From Lachnospiraceae bacterium (GTDB lineage Bacteria > Bacillota > Clostridia > Lachnospirales > Lachnospiraceae), in NCBI GenBank assembly GCA_021205565.1, contig JAJPXG010000044.1, positions 1 to 45,577 of the forward strand: DNA of 45,577 nucleotides. Direction: 5' to 3'. Shown one piece after another: positions 8,181-14,457 of this stretch. The position numbers were made by a program, and so were the translations under genes. The notes beneath the pieces were generated by a model. That model saw only the letters and a program-made list of their open reading frames with translations. It did no database searches and was not told the origin of the DNA. Position 1 is the first letter of the stretch, and each line of letters opens with the position of its first letter.

Positions 8181-8612
8181 ATGTACGCAGGCAAATACAA
8201 TCACACGCTTGATACAAAAGGCAGACTCATTCTTCCCTCGAAGCTGCGCGACTCGCTTGGCGAGGAGTTCGTAGTGACCAAGGGGATCGATGGGTGTTTG
8301 TTTGTGTACGACAAAACAGAGTGGGCGCAGTTCGAGGAGAAGCTCGATACGCTCTCCATCACCAGCAAGGAGTCCCGTAAGGTACTGCGGTTTTTCTTAT
8401 CCGGCGCAGCCTATGTGGAAGTGGACAAGCAGGGGCGTTTCCTGGTCCCGACAGAGCTTCGCGAGTACGCGGGTCTGGATAAGGATGTGTGTATGGTAGG
8501 CAGCGGGCGCCATGTGGAGATCTGGGATAAGAGCCGCTGGGATGCTGAGAATGAAGACATTGACGTGGATCAGTCCATGGCATACTTGGACAGCATCGGC
8601 ATTCGCCTGTAG
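8181..8612 (+). CDS. mraZ: Transcriptional regulator MraZ
   Basis: MYAGKYNHTLDTKGRLILPSKLRDSLG and DKQGRFLVPTELREYA (two SpoVT/AbrB-like repeats). Confidence 0.97.
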   Translation: MYAGKYNHTLDTKGRLILPSKLRDSLGEEFVVTKGIDGCLFVYDKTEWAQFEEKLDTLSITSKESRKVLRFFLSGAAYVEVDKQGRFLVPTELREYAGLDKDVCMVGSGRHVEIWDKSRWDAENEDIDVDQSMAYLDSIGIRL

Positions 8613-9568: not shown

Positions 9569-10231
9569 ATGGCAGGCAACGATTACGGATACCGCAGATA
9601 CGGAAGCACACAGGTAAATACAAGAGCTAACGGCAGCAGAACTGCAGCAGGCAGGACTTCCGCACAGTATCAGTATGGAACGGCTGCTCCCAAGCAGAGC
9701 CCGGCCCGCAGGCAGACTGCATCCCAGGCAGCAGCTCCGGCCCGCAGACGGACCACATCCCAGACGGCACCGGCGCGCAGGCAGGAAATGCCGCAGACAA
9801 CCCGCAGACAGGTGCGCACGCAGGCGGCACCCGCCCGCAGACAGGTGCCCAGACGTCATGAGGTGAATGTCGGCGCTGAGAAAGCGAAGGTTACTCTGCA
9901 GGCCTCTCCGGTCAACAGACTGGCGCTTTTAACCGTGACGGCAGCGTTTTTATTTCTGGGAGCGATGGTACTGCGCTATGTCAGTCTGCAGTCTGACATC
10001 ACACAGTTAAGAACGAATATTCAGTCTCTGGAGTCCGAGGTGAATGATCTGACTGCCAGCAATGACGAATACCTGAGCAGAATCGAGGCAGGCGTCGATC
10101 TGGAGGAAGTCAGAGAAGTCGCCATCATGGATCTGGGGATGGTTTATGCCACTGAGGATCAGATTATTACATATGATTCCCAGATTGACGATTATCTGGA
10201 ACAGAGCGTCGTCATTTCAGACGAGGATTGA
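9569..10231 (+). CDS. ftsL: FtsL-like septum protein with Arg/Ala/Gln-rich N-terminal extension
   Basis: Position after rsmH; single TM followed by coiled coil (LRTNIQSLESEVNDLTASNDEYLSRIE). Confidence 0.75.
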   Translation: MAGNDYGYRRYGSTQVNTRANGSRTAAGRTSAQYQYGTAAPKQSPARRQTASQAAAPARRRTTSQTAPARRQEMPQTTRRQVRTQAAPARRQVPRRHEVNVGAEKAKVTLQASPVNRLALLTVTAAFLFLGAMVLRYVSLQSDITQLRTNIQSLESEVNDLTASNDEYLSRIEAGVDLEEVREVAIMDLGMVYATEDQIITYDSQIDDYLEQSVVISDED

Positions 10232-10232
10232 G

Positions 10233-12437
10233 ATGAACGGGAGGACCCAAAACAGAGGGGGACGAGGCGGTAAAGGAAAGCAACGCAAGGTGGATACCAC
10301 GAAGTTTCGGCCTTATATGAGGCGAAAGCTGGTGGTTTTCTGTACAATAGCGCTGGCAATGACCGGTTTTCTGATCTGGAGGCTGGTGGATATCACCGCG
10401 ACCAGCGAGGAAAAGTATAAACAGATCGTGTTAAGCCAGCAGGCCTATGATTCCACAACGCTTGCTTACAAGCGGGGCACGATCTACGACGCGAACGGTA
10501 CGGTCTTAGCCTACAGTGAAAAAGTATATAATGTCATCTTGGACACAAAGGCACTTCTGGCGGACGACGAAGCCTATACGCCCACGCTGGAGGCACTGGA
10601 GGCGTGTTTCCCTGACATCGTGCTTTCGGATGTAAAGGAATATATCAGCAACTATCCCTCTTCACAATACCGTATTATTTTAAAGAGTATCTCCTACGAT
10701 GAGATGGAGGCATACTACGATTACGTGGATGCGGTTTATGCCGCCGGGGAAGCCGCGGCGGAGGCAAGCGGAGAGACGTACAGCGGGACGCACATTACCG
10801 GTATCTGGTTTGAGGAGCAGTATGAGAGAAAATATCCATACAGCACCCTGGCAAGTGAGGTGCTGGGCTTTGTCGGATCAGATAATAACGGCATGTTTGG
10901 CCTGGAGGAGTATTACAATGATACGCTGAACGGAACAACCGGCAGGGAGTACGGATATCTGAACGAGGACAGCGAGGTCAATGTGACGACCATTCCGGCC
11001 ACGGATGGTTACAGCATTGTCACTACGATCGACGCCAATATCCAGACGACTGTGGAGAAGTGGATCGATTATTATAATGAACTACTGAGGAATAATTACA
11101 GAACAGGCGCGGGCGCGGAGAACATCGGCGTGATCGTCATGGATGTGAACGACGGCAGTGTTCTGGCCATGGCGTCGAATACAGATTATGACTGTAATGA
11201 TCCTTATGATCTGAGCGAGTATTTCACGGAAGCGGAGTGGGCCGCCCTGCAGGATGATACGGATTTATTTTACACCGAATCCAACCAGATCTGGAGGAAC
11301 TTCTGCATTTCCGATACCTATGAGCCCGGTTCGGTGGCCAAGCCCTTCACTGTGGCGATGGCGCTGGAAACAGGAGCCATCACCGGCAATGAGACTTATT
11401 ACTGCGGCGGCTCTTTAGAAGTAGGCGGCTGGAGCATCAGCTGTCATAATACCTCCGGACATGGATACGTTACAGTTTCTGAAGCGATTGAGGAGTCCTG
11501 CAACGTGGCACTGATGCAGATCGCACAGGCGCTGGGAGAGGAATCCTTCGTCGAGTATCAGAACCGATTCGGCTTTGGCTTAAAGAGCAACATTGATCTG
11601 GCGGGCGAGGCGAGAACCGCGAGCCTGATCTATACAGAAGACACCATCGGCAGCGCAGAGTTAGCCACTTCTTCATTTGGACAGGGCTTTCAGGTATCCA
11701 TGATTCAGATGGCCGCGAGCTTCTGTTCTTTAGTGAACGGCGGGTATCTGTACGAGCCTAGAGTGGTTAGTCAGATTTTGAGCTCCAACGGTACCGTAGT
11801 GGAAAATATTTCCGCCAAGCTGGTCAAGCAGACCATCTCCGCTTCCACCAGTGAGAAAATCATCGAGTACTGTAATAAGGTCATTACCGAAGGCACCGGC
11901 ACCAGAGCGGCTGTAGCGGGGTATCTCATCGGCGGCAAGACCGGTACCAGTGAGACACTTCCCAGAGGAAACGGGGATTATGTGATTTCCTTCTGCGGAT
12001 ATGCTCCGGCGGATGATCCGCAGGTCTTGGTGTATGTGGTCATTGACAGACCCAATGTGGAGGATCAGGCCAATTCCACTAAGTACGCCTGCTGGCTCAG
12101 CAAGGACATCATGACAGATATCCTGCCATATCTGGGAATTTATATGACGGAGGAACTGACCGAGGAAGAAGAGGCAGATTTGGCTGACAGAGCCGAGTCT
12201 GTGATTCAGGAGTACCTGCAGAAGAGAGCCTTAGAGGATACGGAGGAGGATATCTCGGAAGCGGCCGATAATACCGATATGCTCAATTCAACAGCCGCTG
12301 ACAATGAAGCGACCACTACAACCATTGGCTCGACCGTGGAGGGAATTGAGACGGAGGAAAGCACAGAGACGCAGGAAACAGAAGCAGAGGAAACGGAAAC
12401 TGAAACAGAAACAGAAAGCGCTGCTTCCACTGAATAA
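10233..12437 (+). CDS. Class B penicillin-binding protein (FtsI/SpoVD type) with Thr/Glu-rich tail
   Basis: SVAK, SCN and KTGT motifs; C-terminal TEESTETQETEAEETETETETES; start ATG 10233. Confidence 0.9.
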   Translation: MNGRTQNRGGRGGKGKQRKVDTTKFRPYMRRKLVVFCTIALAMTGFLIWRLVDITATSEEKYKQIVLSQQAYDSTTLAYKRGTIYDANGTVLAYSEKVYNVILDTKALLADDEAYTPTLEALEACFPDIVLSDVKEYISNYPSSQYRIILKSISYDEMEAYYDYVDAVYAAGEAAAEASGETYSGTHITGIWFEEQYERKYPYSTLASEVLGFVGSDNNGMFGLEEYYNDTLNGTTGREYGYLNEDSEVNVTTIPATDGYSIVTTIDANIQTTVEKWIDYYNELLRNNYRTGAGAENIGVIVMDVNDGSVLAMASNTDYDCNDPYDLSEYFTEAEWAALQDDTDLFYTESNQIWRNFCISDTYEPGSVAKPFTVAMALETGAITGNETYYCGGSLEVGGWSISCHNTSGHGYVTVSEAIEESCNVALMQIAQALGEESFVEYQNRFGFGLKSNIDLAGEARTASLIYTEDTIGSAELATSSFGQGFQVSMIQMAASFCSLVNGGYLYEPRVVSQILSSNGTVVENISAKLVKQTISASTSEKIIEYCNKVITEGTGTRAAVAGYLIGGKTGTSETLPRGNGDYVISFCGYAPADDPQVLVYVVIDRPNVEDQANSTKYACWLSKDIMTDILPYLGIYMTEELTEEEEADLADRAESVIQEYLQKRALEDTEEDISEAADNTDMLNSTAADNEATTTTIGSTVEGIETEESTETQETEAEETETETETESAASTE

Positions 12438-12446
12438 AAAGAACAC

Positions 12447-12659
12447 GCGGCCCATGTAAAAGGGGAAGAAAGGGCCGCAGACAGTGTAAAAGGGAAAACA
12501 AAAGGCTTTGGCCCGTGTAAAAGGGGAATTTACAAAGGTTAAGCCTAAGTAAAAGGGGAAAGGCCGCACCGGTGTAAAAGGGGAATTTACTGCAGGTCCG
12601 GCCAAAGTGAAAAAGGGGAATAAAGGCTGCGCCCGTGTAAAAGGGGAATGAAAGGCGCA
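12447..12659 (+). repeat. Array of seven GTAAAAGGGGAA motifs alternating between hairpin loops and linkers
   Basis: Motifs at 12456, 12486 (one mismatch), 12517, 12549, 12574, 12607 (2-nt longer variant), 12637; pairable flanks at 12447-12478, 12503-12546, 12562-12603, 12628-12659. Confidence 0.85.
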
Positions 12660-12672
12660 ACCGAAGCCGGGC

Positions 12673-12724
12673 ATAACCTCATGGAAAGTCACATAAGCTT
12701 AAAACAAACTTTCTGTGAGGTTAT
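12673..12724 (+). promoter_or_regulatory. Hairpin sequestering the SD of the second PBP gene
   Basis: ATAACCTCATGGAAAGT (12673-12689) pairs with ACTTTCTGTGAGGTTAT (12708-12724), 17 pairs with two G-U; SD GAGG lies in the 3' arm. Confidence 0.75.
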
Positions 12725-12726
12725 TT

Positions 12727-14457
12727 ATGTTTGTCAGAACCTATCAGAAGAAAAAGATCCTGTTTTTTGCAGCGGCGAGTATTCTCGTGCTTTTCGCGTT
12801 ATTGGGCCGTCTGATTTATCTGATGGCGGCGCGGGGCGATTACTACGCGCAGATGGCCACCGATTTACAGGAGCGGGAGCGGGACATCAAGGCGCTTCGC
12901 GGACGGATTTTGGACCGCAACGGCGTGGTGCTGGCGGATAACGAGACAGTATGCACGGTATCCGTGATCTACAATCAGATCGAGGATCCGGAAAAAGTGA
13001 TAGAGGTCCTGTGCGAGGAGCTTGGGCTGGACGAGGAATATGTCCGCACCCGTGTGGAAAAGTACTCCTCACGGGAACGGATCATGAGCAATGTGCCAAA
13101 GGAGACGGGAGACCGTATCCGCAGCTATGACCTGGCCGGCGTCAAGGTGGACGAGGATTACAAACGCTATTATCCATACAGCACGCTTGCCAGCAAGGTC
13201 TTAGGCTTTACCGGCTCAGACAACCAGGGAATCCTGGGGCTGGAAGTGGTATACGATGAATATCTCTCCGGTGAGGACGGAAAAATCCTGACCGTGACAG
13301 ACGCCTCCGGAATTGAGATTCAGGAGGAAGGGGAGCGCAGGATCGAACCGGTGGCGGGAGACGATCTGGTCATCACCATCGACGCCAATATTCAGTCTTA
13401 CGCCGAGCAGCTGGCATTACAGGCATATGAGGCCAAAGAGGCCGAAAACGTCATGATTCTGGTGATGAACCCCAACAACGGGGAAATCTACGCCTGCGTC
13501 AATGTGCCGGAATTTGATTTAAATGCTCCTTACGAGCTGACGGATCTCTGGGCTGAGAAGCTTACCGACGGCAATACGGAGGACAAATTGAAAACCATGT
13601 GGCGCAACGGTATTATCAGCGACAGCTATGAGCCGGGATCCACATTTAAAATTATTACCGCCGCGGCAGCTTTGGAAGAGGGCGTTGTTTCCCTGGATGA
13701 GGCATTTTACTGTCCTGGCTATGTGACGGTGGACGACCGTCGGATTCGCTGTGCGAGAACGACGGGACATGGGGCGGAAACCTTTGTGACGGCGCTGCAG
13801 AACAGCTGCAACCCGGTTTTTGTACAGATCGGTTTACGGCTGGGCGTGGAGACCTATTACAGTTATTTTGAGAGTTTTGGTTTAAGCACGAAAACCGGTG
13901 TGGATCTGCCGGGTGAGTCCAGGACCATCGTACATGAGATGGAGGACATGGGCAATGTCGAGCTGGCGACCATGGCCTTCGGGCAGGGCTTTCAGATCAC
14001 GCCGATCCAGCTTCTGACGACGGTATCTTCTATTATCAATGGAGGGTATCGGGTCACGCCGCATTTTGCGATTAAGGCAGTGGGCGAAGAGGGGGATACG
14101 GTATTCGAATATCCCGTCACGGAGGGAATTGTCAGTGAGGAAACCTCGGCAATCATGCGTGAGCTTCTGGAATCTGTGGTGAGCGAGGGCGGCGGCAAAA
14201 ACGGCCAGGTGGAAGGCTACCGGGTCGGCGGCAAGACTGCCACGAGTCAGACCCTTCCCAGAGGAAACGGTAAATATATTGCTTCCTTCATCGGTTTTGC
14301 GCCGGCGGATAATCCGCAGGTGATCGCTATCTGTATCATCACGCACCCGCAGGGTACTTATTACGGAGGACAGATCTGCGCGCCGGTGATCCGCCAGCTT
14401 TTTGAAAATATACTTCCCTATCTGGAGGAAAAGGAGTATAATCCCTCGATGGAGTAG
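12727..14457 (+). CDS. Class B penicillin-binding protein (FtsI/SpoVD type), second tandem copy
   Basis: STFK, SCN and KTAT motifs; ATG 12727 preceded by GAGG (ORF track starts at GTG 12715). Confidence 0.92.
   Translation: MFVRTYQKKKILFFAAASILVLFALLGRLIYLMAARGDYYAQMATDLQERERDIKALRGRILDRNGVVLADNETVCTVSVIYNQIEDPEKVIEVLCEELGLDEEYVRTRVEKYSSRERIMSNVPKETGDRIRSYDLAGVKVDEDYKRYYPYSTLASKVLGFTGSDNQGILGLEVVYDEYLSGEDGKILTVTDASGIEIQEEGERRIEPVAGDDLVITIDANIQSYAEQLALQAYEAKEAENVMILVMNPNNGEIYACVNVPEFDLNAPYELTDLWAEKLTDGNTEDKLKTMWRNGIISDSYEPGSTFKIITAAAALEEGVVSLDEAFYCPGYVTVDDRRIRCARTTGHGAETFVTALQNSCNPVFVQIGLRLGVETYYSYFESFGLSTKTGVDLPGESRTIVHEMEDMGNVELATMAFGQGFQITPIQLLTTVSSIINGGYRVTPHFAIKAVGEEGDTVFEYPVTEGIVSEETSAIMRELLESVVSEGGGKNGQVEGYRVGGKTATSQTLPRGNGKYIASFIGFAPADNPQVIAICIITHPQGTYYGGQICAPVIRQLFENILPYLEEKEYNPSME

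Follow-up and report, generated by a model that had tools for sequence, protein, structure and literature searches.

A repeated-hairpin array between two class-B penicillin-binding protein genes of a Lachnospiraceae bacterium is complementary to a small RNA and probably acts as its sponge

What is the function of an array of seven motif copies, set alternately in hairpin loops and in the linkers between hairpins, in the intergenic stretch between two co-directional penicillin-binding protein (PBP) genes? The array lies in a stretch of 45,577 nucleotides from a Lachnospiraceae bacterium (assembly GCA_021205565.1, contig JAJPXG010000044.1, positions 1 to 45,577 of the forward strand), referred to here as the window; its source genome is G000, and the array-bearing sister species are G004 and G006. 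A preliminary description of this DNA held that the array acts at the RNA level. This reading stands, while the role of the motif was missed: it is the antisense of the conserved loop of a small RNA (sRNA) encoded elsewhere in the same genome. We propose that the array, an untranslated stretch of a class-B PBP operon, is probably a multi-site sponge for this trans-encoded sRNA. Our best guess, held a shade less firmly, is that titration of the sRNA rather than regulation of the PBP mRNA would be the main role of the array.

The whole array, four hairpins plus linkers, spans positions 12444-12662 of the + strand (the strand of every window feature given here), and its seven GTAAAAGGGGAA copies occupy 12456-12648. 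The copies start at 12456, 12486, 12517, 12549, 12574, 12609 and 12637. Six of these starts agree with the preliminary description; the in-register start of copy 6 is 12609, the 12607 given earlier being a GT two bases before it, and the start-to-start spacing is therefore 25-35 nt and not 25-33 nt. With up to two mismatches allowed, GTAAAAGGGGAA matches the window 12 times against 3.2 expected, a count reached in none of 100 shuffles. The minimum free energy fold of 12438-12662 bears out the four non-overlapping hairpins that had been described, with copies 2, 4 and 6 as linkers. Hairpin 1 (12447-12478; arms GCGGCCC/GGGCCGC), which is identical in G004, displays copy 1 (12456-12467), and copy 2, GTAAAAGGGAAA, follows in a linker (12486-12497). 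Hairpin 2 (12503-12546) displays copy 3 (12517-12528) as GTAAA-AGGGGAA-TTTAC, an antisense mirror of the sRNA hairpin, and is followed by linker copy 4 (12549-12560). Hairpin 3 (12562-12603) holds copy 5 (12574-12585) in its loop, and no other site of the window pairs as well with the sRNA (-31.3 kcal/mol); linker copy 6, GAAAAAGGGGAA, lies at 12609-12620. Finally, hairpin 4 (12625-12662; arms GGCTGCGCC/GGCGCAACC) displays copy 7 (12637-12648) and carries a compensatory change in G004. Scans found no promoter or terminator of the array's own and no + strand terminator between the two PBP genes, and no Rfam covariance model matched the array at E up to 1.

What is the partner of this motif? Outside the array, exact TGTAAAAGGGGAA occurs at one locus, found in every member of the genus, and the opposite strand of that locus carries an sRNA-type gene of ~90 nt (in G000 near 16489 of contig C62, on the minus strand of L033). 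Upstream stands TTGCAT-17-TATACT, in which TATACT resembles a -10 element; there follow, in order, often a 5' hairpin, the core GUAAAAUUCCCCUUUUACAC, and then a GC hairpin and a U run. The core sits in a hairpin with a C-rich loop, a hairpin conserved in most members, and an intrinsic terminator comes after it. We found the locus in all 10 genus genomes and in at least 8 other Lachnospiraceae genomes. The core AAAATTCCCCTTTTACAC is identical in 10 of 10 aligned sequences (nine genus members and RGIG8571, a genome taken up below) while the flanks vary, and a search with the exact core AAATTCCCCTTTTACA, which misses variant cores, found it in 13 of 397 family genomes versus 1 for the reversed control. 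Of the core matches in genomes beyond the genus, 11 loci, spread over 8 genomes, share the sRNA anatomy and three loci do not; the matches in G369, G244 and G273 were rejected as sRNA genes because a terminator is absent. By script, a terminator was detected at 20 of 22 sRNA loci versus none of three chance loci, and the other two sRNA loci, both in G096, show terminator hairpins in the fold. The terminator arms pair own with own to a degree that none of 10,000 permutations reached. No Rfam family matched the sRNA, RsaE/RoxS included, the only hits being sub-threshold matches to unrelated families. The predicted sRNA is a separate Lachnospiraceae family, undescribed and outside Rfam.

Some further observations concern this gene and its motif. 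Three genomes hold two copies of the sRNA gene each: G323 (L170, L180), G272 (L174, L182) and G096 (L178, L183). Two motif matches were set aside, one in G355 inside a coding-looking stretch and one in G215 at an ordinary-looking ribosome site. Mobile-element ends, considered as a reading of the motif on contig C62, were rejected because a single sRNA-type locus, the same one throughout, is found in each member of the genus.

How closely do the two RNAs fit? Each array unit reads as the invariant sRNA core GUAAAAUUCCCCUUUUACAC in reverse complement, the linker copies retain the seed complement AAAAGGGGAA, and every copy lies on the strand complementary to the sRNA. Moreover, the array hairpin GUGUAAA-AGGGGAA-UUUAC is a near-perfect antisense mirror of the sRNA hairpin GUAAAA-UUCCCC-UUUUAC. 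When both strands of the window were scanned against the open part of the sRNA (9,108 positions), array sites took ranks 1-3 and 6 of the top 9, with pairing energies of -31 to -22 kcal/mol against a scan mean of -7.9 (standard deviation 3.0); in the corresponding scan of G006, array sites fill the first five ranks among 1,192 positions. The predicted unpaired probability of AGGGGAA is about 0.85-0.99 at most copies and 0.51 at the lowest. Like those of a sponge, the array sites thus complement the region with which a particular sRNA of the same genome would bind its targets, and they are predicted, from the unpaired probabilities, to be accessible. At the level of sequence the complementarity of array and sRNA is established, and it is very likely that the two pair in the cell.

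Could the motif bind something other than this sRNA? AAAAGGGG is Shine-Dalgarno (SD)-like, and AAAGGGG pairs with the 3' end of 16S rRNA at -8.4 kcal/mol, as it would if the array were a decoy for 30S subunits. We regard such a decoy as exceedingly improbable: the array pairs with the anti-SD at -8 kcal/mol versus -30 kcal/mol with the sRNA, and what its conserved flanks, UGU and UUUAC, fit is the sRNA and not 16S rRNA. A second candidate is a protein. The CsrB/RsmZ RNAs consist of many hairpins sharing a loop motif, with further motifs in the linkers, and the alternation of copies between loop and linker in the array has the same layout, with GGA motifs in both. However, those RNAs bind the CsrA protein, and the genome has no gene for it, whereas the same search detects CsrA in E. 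coli and B. subtilis; in addition, the conserved motif extends well past GGA and matches the sRNA complement. A titrator of CsrA was therefore rejected and is largely refuted, and a protein titrator of this kind is in general highly improbable.

Are the hairpins and their motif maintained, or do they reflect only the way in which repeats multiply? Stability alone is insufficient proof of structure here. The array by itself is mildly more stable than its shuffles (z -1.4; -1.9 in G004 and -4.1 in G006), and the z of -3.0 for 12438-12730, the interval whose folding the preliminary description proposed, is owed largely to a separate hairpin at 12673-12724. Since these values are weak, it is the compensatory changes that supply the proof. 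Across 14 distinct hairpins, to which RGIG8571 contributes three, own-arm pairing sums to -158 kcal/mol versus -74 (standard deviation 10) for permuted arms, and none of 20,000 permutations reached the observed sum. Likewise, GCGCC/GGCGC in one unit of G000 corresponds to GCGTC/GACGC in the orthologous unit of G004, a double change from C-G to U-A. The motif itself is conserved relative to the rest of the array: the differences between G000 and G004 number 1 in 84 motif positions versus 15 in 132 others (p 0.006, the lone motif difference being an alignment gap), and those between G000 and G006 number 3 in 84 versus 46 in 132 (p 1e-8). Two earlier claims are upheld by these results. The stems do differ while pairing and loop motif are kept, as the arm permutations, the double change and the motif conservation indicate, and arm covariation together with motif conservation supports action at the RNA level over random repeat decay.

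The same evidence bears on two readings of the array as a repeat. A plain variable-number tandem repeat was ruled out by the spacing of 25-35 nt, the unlike flanks, the covarying arms and the conserved motif. A selfish or neutral repeat, in which units duplicate and template-switch (quasi-palindrome) correction keeps the arms complementary, would fit a copy number that varies across species (7, 7 and about 10) and units that show duplication. We consider it very unlikely, since motif positions have diverged less than the remainder of the array, an older sRNA of family-wide occurrence is matched by the motif on the strand able to pair, the linker copies are kept though they lie outside any palindrome, and no further array was found elsewhere in the same genome.

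How widely is the array distributed? The region is matched in eight of the nine other genomes of the genus sample, G002 having no match. At the corresponding site, 7 copies occur in G004 (JAJQHY010000079, Lachnospiraceae U.6_8) and about 10, in five hairpins plus linkers, in G006 (JAJQFS010000082, MO.6_7); in the six other members read at the site, the intergenic stretch is short and the array absent. From its presence in three genomes and absence from six, we conclude that the array is a clade-specific gain. A scan of 85,488 species genomes in GTDB for two close exact motifs returned G004, G006 and RGIG8571, and otherwise unrelated pairs or short repeats; all records were listed but not each was studied, and most of the others are short direct repeats, coding stretches or isolated pairs. 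The search of the 397 family genomes yielded no further array of this kind, and viral contigs gave five records with motif pairs and no comparable array. The distant RGIG8571 genome (JAGAMG010000006, L055), which carries the same sRNA type (L162), holds a separate array of about four sites with different hairpins, downstream of a short gene and followed by a terminator. This array probably arose independently. The ribosome site of the gene before it (GTGTAAGAGGGGAATC, GTGTAAGAGGGGAATCAATG) is the best sRNA match of the locus; as a side observation, L055:911-1393 and 1435-1560 may combine an sRNA-complementary target and decoys on one transcript.

Does the array instead control the operon in which it lies? 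The upstream class-B PBP gene (FtsI/SpoVD-like) is listed at 10146-12437, its true start probably lying further in, and the downstream class-B PBP gene (SpoVD-like) runs from the ATG of MFVRTYQKKK at 12727 to 14457. Both proteins score best with the SpoVD model, yet below its curated cut-off, so the names ftsI and spoVD used in the preliminary description are uncertain. The hairpin at 12673-12724, a neighbour and not a part of the array, buries the GUGAGG SD sequence of the downstream PBP gene. Every genus member read has it, whether the array is there or not, and in G001 its sequence is changed and its pairing kept; it is possibly a translational control element. The main rival to the sponge supposes that the array is an sRNA target, at which multi-site binding controls the stability or processing of the PBP operon mRNA or its downstream translation. 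The complementarity of array and sRNA is the same under both readings, and the array lies about 10 nt upstream of the SD-hiding hairpin, where binding could alter folding or create an RNase site. Nevertheless, we find this rather unlikely: seven to ten spaced sites exceed the needs of a simple regulatory target, the SD-hiding hairpin is conserved in species without the array, and the RGIG8571 array lies downstream of its gene, adjoining a terminator.

How, then, would the proposed sponge operate? First, the C-rich loop of the sRNA would kiss the AGGGGAA loop through about 7 pairs. Second, the mutually complementary apical stems would allow the complex to zip into a duplex of about 17-19 bp; loop-loop contact followed by stem zipping is seen in known kissing antisense pairs. 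A single array transcript could in this way bind up several copies of the sRNA, and both RNAs might then decay. The sRNA would otherwise block ribosome sites of the AAAGGGGAA type, the best candidate being that of a regulator made up of the Spo0A_C domain only and related to Spo0A, the master regulator of sporulation, and transcription of the cell-wall operon would relieve the repression of this regulator.

Several points weigh against a sponge. The case for both RNAs is built on sequence and prediction. The sRNA has a weak -35 element (TTGCAT), too weak for its promoter to appear in the promoter scan. Sponge action depends on the ratio of sponge to sRNA, which is not readable from sequence, and the position of the array inside an operon suits a regulated target equally. 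The array occurs in just three genus genomes and is therefore an add-on, not essential to the sRNA circuit. Finally, the RGIG8571 array is weaker, with sites of -21 and -17, and as a whole folds no more stably than shuffled sequence (z -0.4), which makes this second case suggestive only.

Which genes might such a sponge release from repression? The form AAAGGGGAA-N-ATG is found repeatedly among ribosome sites in the genus; weak sRNA matches to SD sequences mean little, since these are purine-rich. The best conserved candidate target is the ribosome site AAAGGGGAATTTTACTATG (AAAGGGGAATTTTACGATG in G006), present in seven species and complementary to the sRNA over 15 nt. Its gene (L217:448-825, contig C164 of G000) encodes a protein of 125 aa that consists solely of the Spo0A DNA-binding domain (PF08769, E 1e-38). 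Among sRNA-bearing genomes with an assigned start, the ribosome site of this paralogue pairs with the sRNA at -10.8 to -27.6 kcal/mol, versus mostly -6 to -14 for the longer spo0A homologue, with G193 (-27) as the exception. At the other end of the putative circuit, a 0A-box-like TGTCGA stands at the same place in eight of the ten genus sRNA promoters, and TTGTCAA in the other two. On these matches, the sRNA and a Spo0A-type protein could plausibly form a regulatory loop. Much more tentatively, a multivalent kissing-hairpin sponge in a cell-wall operon, every hairpin of it mirroring the sRNA hairpin in antisense, may titrate a Lachnospiraceae-wide sRNA and so free the translation of a Spo0A_C-only regulator whose DNA box may control the sRNA promoter, such sponges having arisen at least twice.

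A number of related observations were made. Spo0A_C-only paralogues similar to the L217 protein occur in several Lachnospiraceae genera. The longer spo0A homologue of G000 (L240, contig C158) has just 177 aa, which leaves too little room for the usual receiver domain; this short form is also found in several other Lachnospiraceae, others having about 270 aa. In most genus members a Spo0A-box-like TTTTGTCGA(A) lies at the same position between the -35 and -10 elements of the sRNA (minus strand of L033, around 8540-8560), and TTCGACA stands upstream of the sRNA core in G378 and G069. In G004, two sRNA-complementary sites 39 nt apart lie upstream of a sigma-factor-like gene (L144, C63:4833-4884). 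A conserved gene whose start codon lies between two AAGGGGAA sites is another candidate target (L219/G000:C150:4243-4279; G004:C48:71157); for the AAGGGGAA..AAGGGGAA pair search the reversed control is uninformative, because the word reads identically backwards.

What would a sponge of this kind mean? To our knowledge, natural bacterial sRNA sponges carry one or a few sites, and a loop/linker array of 7-10 sites, its loops borne on covarying hairpins, would parallel in nature the tandem sponges built by engineering. The array comes with an undescribed sRNA family across the Lachnospiraceae, a major gut family with little-charted riboregulation, and the circuit proposed here, which joins cell-wall gene expression, an sRNA and a Spo0A-type regulator, is testable.

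Finally, both RNAs can be set beside known systems. The sRNA is like RoxS/RsaE, FsrA and CsfG in being short and in having a C-rich region, a terminator and predicted pairing with ribosome sites; it differs in lacking any Rfam match and in its core GUAAAAUUCCCCUUUUACAC, which is conserved as a hairpin in most members. By target alone it can be likened to SpoY of Clostridioides difficile, an sRNA that pairs with the spo0A ribosome site (PMC10267692), whereas the target of the present sRNA is a prediction and is not full-length spo0A but a paralogue with the Spo0A_C domain alone. For the array, the initial statement that no described RNA class has this layout was too strong, since G-rich sponges of C-rich sRNAs are known. 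In Bacillus subtilis, RoxS and FsrA are sponged by the RNA RosA, whose accessible G-rich regions pair with the C-rich regions that these sRNAs use on their mRNA targets (PMC8216469). RosA is the nearest known case, likened by action and not by sequence: in both, accessible G-rich sites face a C-rich sRNA in a Gram-positive bacterium. RosA has its own promoter and terminator, whereas the scans found neither for the array. RosA-RoxS binding rests mainly on one region (GRR2), and one-to-one mixtures give full duplex (PMC8216469). The array, in contrast to RosA, has 7-10 near-identical sites, half of them in covarying hairpins, inside an operon, and this repeated-hairpin form, number of sites and operon setting are new to the literature searched, which comprised open-licence papers.
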